A stretch of 48,035 nt of DNA from Nocardioidaceae bacterium (GTDB taxonomy: Bacteria > Actinomycetota > Actinomycetes > Propionibacteriales > Nocardioidaceae), in the NCBI GenBank assembly GCA_025927595.1, contig JAICLD010000002.1, positions 1 through 48,035 on the forward strand, given 5' to 3'. Of this stretch, positions 10,299 through 11,586 are shown piece after piece (within the stretch, counting starts at the first letter, position 1; the number at the start of each line of letters is the position of its first letter). A program made the translations under genes and the position numbers. The notes under the pieces are model-generated. The model had not been told where the DNA came from. It saw only the letters and a program-made list of their open reading frames with translations, and did not search any database.

Positions 10299-10315
10299 CG
10301 CCGCCGGCCGGTTGT

Positions 10316-10383
10316 CGGTTTACCAGGCGCCCCTGGTAAACCGGCACACCCCTGCTGTTGCAACAGCAGGAGTGTGCCAGTTC
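10316..10383 (+). repeat. Left 68-bp inverted repeat (hairpin A + hairpin B)
   Basis: CGGTTTACCAGGCGCCCCTGGTAAACCGGCACACCCCTGCTGTTGCAACAGCAGGAGTGTGCCAGTTC; 65/68 identical to reverse complement of 11510-11577 by manual alignment. Confidence 0.95.
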
Positions 10384-10464
10384 CCTCGGGGGTGTGGCGT
10401 CCCCAGCTCGTACGACGGACCGGCGGAAGCCGTCGCCGCGCGGAGAGCGTCCACACACCTCGGC

Positions 10465-11490
10465 ATGGCGGTCACGGGTCCACAGGGAGCGAAGGAACAC
10501 CGCTCCGGCCGCTTCCGGCGGCTCACACTGCGGGGCGTGCAGGACTACTTCAGGGCGCTCGACGAGCGGCATGGCTTCATCGCCCGGTCGGAGATCCTCG
10601 CCGCGGGGCACGACGACCGATTCATCCGCGACATGCTTCGACGCCGGGTCTGGACCCGGATCCGCAACGGCGCCTACACGCCGCTCGACACCTGGCAGCG
10701 GCTCGACGCGGTCGAACGTCACGTGCGCCGCGCCCGTGCCGTCCTCCATGCTCATGGTGACGCGGTGGCCCTCAGCCACGTCAGCGCGATGGTGGTCAGG
10801 GGTGGCTGCGACGTCTGGGGCATCGACCTGAGTCGGGTTCACGTCACCCGGCGCGATGGTCGCTCCGGCAGCATCGAGCGGGACGTCGTCCACCACCAAG
10901 GGTCCCTCCGGGATGACGACGTCGAGATGATGGCCGGGATGGCCGTCCTCGACGAGGCGCGCTCCTTGGCCGAGACGATCTGTGGGGCCGGTGTGGAGTC
11001 AGGCCTCGTGGTGGCGGACTCGACGTTCCGCAGAGGGCGCGTCACCGTCGACCGGCTGGAGCAGCTGCGTGAGGCCATGCAGCGCCACCGCGGCAGCCGC
11101 ACCCTGGACCTGGTGCTGCGGCTGGCGGACGGCCGGGCTCAGTCGGTCGGCGAGTCGCGGTGCCGCTACCTCTTCTGGAAGCACGGCCTGCCCCGGCCGG
11201 AGCTGCAGTTCCCGGTGTTCGACCGGGACGGGAGGCTGCTGGGGTTCACCGACCTCGCCTGGCCGGCTCACCGACTGCTCTTCGAGTTCGACGGCCGGGT
11301 CAAGTACGGCCGCCTGCTCGAGCCCGGCCAGGAGCCCGGAGACGTCGTCTTCGCCGAGAAGCGTCGCGAGGACGCGATTCGACGGGCCACGGGCTTCACC
11401 TTCGAACGCGCCACGTGGGCCGACCTGTCGACGCCGGCCGCCACCGTGGCACGGGTCCGGGTCCACATGGTCAGCGGCTCTACCGCATGA
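10465..11490 (+). CDS. AbiEi-like N-terminal domain protein with C-terminal DUF559/Vsr-like PD-(D/E)XK nuclease domain
   Basis: N-term HGFIARSEILAAGHDDRFIRDMLRRRVWTRIRNGAYTP (AbiEi_4-like wHTH); C-term GESRCRYLFWKHGLPRPELQFPVFDRDGRLLGFTDLAWPAHRLLFEFDGRVKYGRL...EKRREDAIRRATGFTFERATWADL. Confidence 0.75.
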   Translation: MAVTGPQGAKEHRSGRFRRLTLRGVQDYFRALDERHGFIARSEILAAGHDDRFIRDMLRRRVWTRIRNGAYTPLDTWQRLDAVERHVRRARAVLHAHGDAVALSHVSAMVVRGGCDVWGIDLSRVHVTRRDGRSGSIERDVVHHQGSLRDDDVEMMAGMAVLDEARSLAETICGAGVESGLVVADSTFRRGRVTVDRLEQLREAMQRHRGSRTLDLVLRLADGRAQSVGESRCRYLFWKHGLPRPELQFPVFDRDGRLLGFTDLAWPAHRLLFEFDGRVKYGRLLEPGQEPGDVVFAEKRREDAIRRATGFTFERATWADLSTPAATVARVRVHMVSGSTA

Positions 11491-11509
11491 CGGCGCGACG
11501 ACCCTGACA

Positions 11510-11577
11510 GAACTGGCACACCCCTGCTGTTGCAACGGCAGGGGTGTGCCGGTTTACCAGGGGCACCTGGTAAACCG
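11510..11577 (-). repeat. Right 68-bp inverted repeat (hairpin B + hairpin A)
   Basis: GAACTGGCACACCCCTGCTGTTGCAACGGCAGGGGTGTGCCGGTTTACCAGGGGCACCTGGTAAACCG; three mismatches against reverse complement of left copy. Confidence 0.95.
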
Positions 11578-11586
11578 GCAGGCCGC

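Follow-up and report, generated by a model that had tools for sequence, protein, structure and literature searches.

A palindrome-bracketed AbiEi/Vsr-like nuclease gene of Nocardioidaceae and its putative partnership with dispersed repeats

Results

Locus organization

The window analysed here comprises 48,035 nucleotides of contig JAICLD010000002.1 from a Nocardioidaceae bacterium (GCA_025927595.1). Between purU on the left and ribF on the right, both named by reading the ORFs, lies a single gene-like ORF enclosed by two inverted arms. The left arm (10316–10383) and the right arm (11510–11577) are identical at 65 of 68 positions in inverted orientation (BLAST E = 5e-29), and the inverted repeat runs on ungapped to 10313–10399 and 11494–11580, giving 87 nt at 89%. 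Each arm consists of palindrome A (26 bp, centre near GGGGCCCC) adjoining palindrome B (36 bp, centre GTTGCAAC), both loop-free, and the overall order is A-B-gene-B-A. Alignment and BLAST thereby bear out the 65/68 match, the paired-hairpin arms, and the A-B-ORF-B-A order described in the initial annotation of this DNA. The features are as follows.

10317–10342, + strand: left arm, palindrome A, GGTTTACCAGGCGCCCCTGGTAAACC
10343–10378, + strand: left arm, palindrome B, 36 bp, centre GTTGCAAC
10379–10399, + strand: left arm tail, where the inverted match carries on to 10399
10400–10536, + strand: leader from the left arm to the likely start codon (homologs align from around codon 25 of the longer ORF)
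10537–11490, + strand: gene encoding a predicted 317-aa protein, an AbiEi-type winged helix joined to a Vsr-like PD-(D/E)XK nuclease; the ATG at 10465 is an alternative start
11152–11154, + strand: candidate active site E206
11251–11253, + strand: candidate active site D239
11284–11292, + strand: candidate active site E250-F-D252
11302–11304, + strand: candidate active site K256
11494–11514, − strand: right arm tail
11515–11550, − strand: right arm, palindrome B
11551–11576, − strand: right arm, palindrome A

The ORF had been drawn from the ATG at 10465. Because the homologs align only from about codon 25 of that longer frame, the gene probably starts at the GTG at 10537, which yields 317 amino acids. 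It had also been suggested that the gene carries its own terminators. We found no intrinsic-terminator-like site (a stem followed by a T-run) at the arms of the locus, there being no T-run after the hairpins, and this suggestion was abandoned. Among known RNA families, the sole match was a spurious microRNA, which was rejected.

Predicted nuclease

An AlphaFold2 model built from a 69-member alignment reached a pLDDT of 93.8. The top Foldseek match was the AbiEi antitoxin 6y8q (E = 1.8e-4), with Rv2827c in third place, and PADLOC AbiEi profiles cover residues 10–186 (E = 2e-12). Pfam AbiEi_4 is present in 58 of the 69 family members. The C-terminal part resembles the catalytic domain of I-Bth0305I (3r3p, TMt 0.65), AbaSI, Vsr (1vsr, 1cw0), and TnsA, each of these PDB matches being weak (Foldseek, E > 0.1). 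Against viral models, the best match was a DUF559 protein (E = 3e-4); Pfam DUF559 was detected in just one of the 69 members, and weakly. Residues E206, D239, E250, D252, and K256 are invariant across the family alignment, and the nuclease core pattern, E..D..ExD..K, differs from the textbook PD-(D/E)XK. Model, structural matches, and profiles agree with the AbiEi-type N-terminus and Vsr-like PD-(D/E)XK fold proposed at the outset, and support a predicted product in which an AbiEi-type winged-helix part is joined to a Vsr/I-Bth0305I-like PD-(D/E)XK nuclease part. The dN/dS values of seven pairs (0.13–0.23) show that the gene is under purifying selection.

The N-terminal fold and profile are shared with the AbiEi antitoxins and Rv2827c (type IV toxin-antitoxin; 6y8q, 1zel), whose known members bind inverted repeats. 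The protein described here differs from them in its nuclease-like C-terminus and in having repeats on both sides of its gene and dispersed elsewhere. As had been noted before, no AbiEii (DUF1814) toxin gene adjoins it, the neighbours being read as purU and ribF. The C-terminal fold and the E/D/ExD/K pattern are in turn shared with Vsr, the EDxHD homing endonuclease I-Bth0305I, and DUF559, the difference here being fusion to an AbiEi-type domain and a tie to a repeat family of its own.

Bracketing across homologs

We scored a locus as bracketed when its upstream and downstream flanks gave an inverted match with E < 1e-5. Nearly all of the best homologs in the host's order carry an inverted repeat, and its sequence differs in nearly every genome. 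Among 80 named loci, 76 could be evaluated; 67 were bracketed and nine were not. Comparable inverted brackets occurred in only 1 of 278 shifted windows and around 2 of 143 other similar-sized genes of the same loci, which excludes chance as the source of the bracket. Beyond the host's order, 15 of 28 loci were bracketed, as against 0 of 55 controls; in several f43 and f20 genomes the gene is present and no bracket was detected. The arms are 60–140 bp long with two different palindromes each, and 64 of 67 lie outside coding frames, whereas 163 of 175 control positions are coding. The locus is therefore one case of a general pattern, in which members of a gene family are bracketed by their own repeats.

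Inverted brackets (E < 1e-5), often with short-tandem-repeat arms, were also found at 15 of 20 distant DUF559-type paralogs, an uncontrolled count based on heuristic gene starts. Since so many of them are bracketed too, these paralogs could not serve as the negative control they were meant to be. One homolog, in genome G020, is split over two contig ends (L101:1-530 and L067); one piece is frameshifted, and palindrome A lies on the outward side of each.

Dispersed repeats

The own genome (294 contigs totalling 2.94 Mb, completeness 82%) contains the arm repeat at 14 more places detected by BLAST and one more detected by palindrome pattern, making about 15 extra intergenic sites. The repeat is thus not confined to this locus. 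The dispersed copies take A-B or A-B-A forms, and no inverted doublets were seen in this genome. All 14 copies examined lie outside coding frames, mostly at tandem or convergent intergenic sites. Across 20 aligned copies, co-variation within the dyads was 0.118, compared with 0.076 in shuffles (reached by 0 of 500), a control that leaves relatedness in. The initial annotation had counted repeats common without the gene as grounds against its reading. Such gene-less repeats are indeed common, yet the homologs consistently carry flanking repeats, and we therefore take the gene-less copies as REP-like dispersal and not as loss of the link. A second, diverged paralog in the same genome (L207, G000:C180:14624-15840) has tandem copies of GCCGAGTCGGCGCGTCCACAGCGC on either side; this sequence is itself scattered over several contigs, which gives the genome two nuclease-repeat pairs.

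Other genomes behave similarly. A concatenated query of the arms of 20 genomes gave matches in all 20 and none in two genomes without an arm in the query; among the matches listed, at least 17 of the 20 had sites away from the gene. For distant lineages together with the own-genome paralog, the repeats were dispersed in at least 14 of 19, with none in one genome whose arm was left out. Nocardioides sp. 503 and N. lijunqiniae each have two paralogs, and the arms of both are scattered in these genomes; the inverted pairs spaced 0.9–1.1 kb apart there flank the nuclease genes. In genome G028, inverted pairs occur at 4 of 13 loci, in the form of gene-less doublets with a gap of about 113–128 bp. 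Two loci of Nocardioides sp. 503 (L254 and L256, at C11:133903 and C8:272920) both match one G060 region over 3 kb, with the same coordinates and identity, and reflect either recent duplication or an artefact of assembly; within the segment, two inverted arms 2.3 kb apart enclose a membrane-protein-like gene.

Arm similarity drops steadily with protein identity. Paralogs of the same genome that are less than 50% identical have arm scores of 6–10, at the level of the shuffled background (7.4 ± 1.4), whereas the closest relatives of a protein in other species generally score 20–57, with L170 (14) and L176 (6) as exceptions. Judged from these comparisons, the arms follow the protein and not the host, and nearly every lineage appears to have its own repeat sequence, scattered in its own genome.

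These data bear on whether the gene might be a passenger, caught between two copies of a repeat that another enzyme (a DDE or Y1 transposase) spreads. The repeats are scattered independently of the gene, as such a scenario would have it, but the bracket recurs with the gene family in many lineages with different repeats, the arms follow the protein, and in the two genomes checked the gene-sized inverted pairs are the ones that enclose the nuclease gene. A transposase search limited to Y1 (PF01797) found the domain neither in the own genome nor in 55 of 59 relatives. We regard a passenger role as very improbable. A RAYT as the driver of the repeats was rejected on the same absence.

A different possibility is that the protein simply regulates, binding palindromes at its own promoter, with the dispersed copies serving as regulatory sites or insulators and the nuclease domain being defensive or structural. 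AbiEi and Rv2827c do bind inverted repeats in their own promoters (PMC7319586), the likely start follows the left arm by about 140 bp, perfect dyads are well matched to a DNA-binding protein, and the PADLOC match to AbiEi spans residues 10–186. However, the gene has an equal arm on its downstream side, the arms are long (60–140 bp) and hold two different palindromes, and the dispersed copies are found chiefly downstream of or between genes, not at promoters. The active-site residues are invariant, and the repeats are wholly replaced in sequence from one lineage to the next. A purely regulatory role is thus unlikely.

Inheritance and mobility

Orthologs more than 70% identical mostly have both flanks in common, and a few units have moved or been duplicated together with their arms. 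One such pair, L138 and L143, occurs in a single genome: the two are 81% identical, lie in different contexts, and carried their arms along. We found no match among 50,697 phage records, two weak matches among 72,556 plasmids, and no confirmed match in IMG/VR. The genes are chromosomal and mostly inherited vertically at fixed sites, a pattern that does not support the freely mobile element envisaged at first. In a separate comparison, L146 and L157 encode proteins 66% identical, with both flanks 87–88% identical at the DNA level; evolution of this nuclease gene may outpace that of the adjacent genes.

The initial annotation had called for comparing empty and occupied purU-ribF sites. Relatives show gene-bearing and gene-less states next to purU. 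Genome G002 has the order purU-arm-gene-arms-mttB (mttB named by reading), G004 is gene-less with a short palindrome alone between purU and mttB, and G006 (L229) lacks the gene at this site but has two inverted arms of its own type. Between two Nocardioides species, most of the dispersed sites compared are common to both. One clean presence/absence of about 134 bp was found (L279 versus L285), with no clear target-site duplication and no exact footprint of insertion. At two further intergenic sites (L265/L286 and L273/L282), the same positions hold different repeat families in the two species; one core is GCCGGTCGACCGGC. Turnover of the dispersed copies is slow, and we counted this against a pairing of nuclease and repeat.

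We considered whether the unit is an ordinary transposon, an autonomous element bounded by terminal inverted repeats, with the protein as its transposase and with solo arms and doublets as MITEs or remnants. The inverted ends, the gene-less doublets, the empty sites, and the few relocated or duplicated units such as L138/L143 would all be expected. Against this, there is generally one gene copy per arm family, orthologs are mostly syntenic, purifying selection is strong, phages yielded nothing and plasmids two matches, and the ~134-bp site shows no clear target-site duplication. Because synteny and purifying selection fit a resident enzyme better, we consider a simple transposon quite unlikely. 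The arms share with MITEs and insertion sequences the character of short, non-autonomous inverted-repeat elements that would depend on a protein encoded elsewhere; the differences are that no known transposase fold is involved and that each repeat family has one resident gene.

Defence genes are known to include AbiEi and DUF559/Vsr-type domains. The nuclease could accordingly act in telling self from non-self, cutting foreign DNA, with the scattered palindromes as a mark or protection of the host chromosome. The PADLOC AbiEi match is in keeping with such a role, and the way protein and repeat diverge would fit an arms race. Inheritance is nevertheless vertical and syntenic, the locus shows no defence-island context, and the repeats, at tens per genome, are too few and uneven to mark a chromosome, which makes a defence function very unlikely.

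Discussion

The closest known systems are RAYT (TnpA_REP) with REP/REPIN, REPtrons, and TIRtrons (PMC3116915, PMC3733652). As in RAYT-REPIN systems, a resident, mostly single-copy gene is flanked by palindromes, and its cognate repeats are scattered between genes. Several distinct pairs can coexist in one genome, protein and repeat diverge together, and inheritance is mainly vertical. Inverted doublets, the REPIN form, occur in only part of the family, as in G028. The enzyme, in contrast, is predicted to be an AbiEi winged helix plus a Vsr-like domain and not a Y1/HUH transposase; the arms here have perfect dyads with two palindromes each; the hosts are Actinomycetota; and the GTAG/CGTC end tag is absent from the arm consensus CGGTTTACCAGGGGCCCC... 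Since the Y1 domain is missing, the family is not part of the RAYTs, though it would work like one. We found no description of such a nuclease-palindrome pairing in the open-access literature searched, nor any open-access paper that treats DUF559 together with inverted repeats.

We favour the explanation that the ORF encodes a resident chromosomal nuclease working with its own dispersed palindromes, in the manner of RAYT and REPIN but with an unrelated enzyme, and assign it a probability of roughly 0.6. The comparative data thereby favour the early comparison with REP/TnpA-REP logic carried out by an unrelated enzyme. In the mechanism we propose, the AbiEi-type winged helix would bind the cognate palindromes, and the Vsr/homing-endonuclease-like domain would nick or cut at or beside them. 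Recognition of the arms by the protein is plausible because binding to inverted repeats is established for the related AbiEi and Rv2827c proteins (PMC7319586). Repair of the cut would copy the repeats into new intergenic sites, and conversion during repair would keep the copies alike. Bracketing of its own gene would tie the nuclease to its repeat and could also serve autoregulation. The likeness of the two flanking arms could alternatively be maintained by recombination without the protein.

A broader proposal takes in the actinobacterial AbiEi-Vsr family as a whole, including the DUF559-type paralogs with short-tandem-repeat arms. Its members would be independently evolved, domesticated repeat-spreaders, each keeping private palindromes by site-specific cutting and copying, and would amount to a second, non-HUH solution to the REP problem. 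We hold this wider claim evenly balanced.

REP-like palindromes outside the tagged REP families, some of them in M. tuberculosis, are reviewed with no dedicated enzyme (PMC3733652). The family described here names a candidate for the actinobacterial REP-like repeats, predicts nuclease-repeat partners in many genomes, and opens the origin of such repeats to testing. The naturally diverged pairs of protein and repeat would offer ready material for work on the recognition of long palindromes by a winged-helix nuclease. If the proposal is true, resident repeat-spreading systems arose at least twice from unrelated nucleases.
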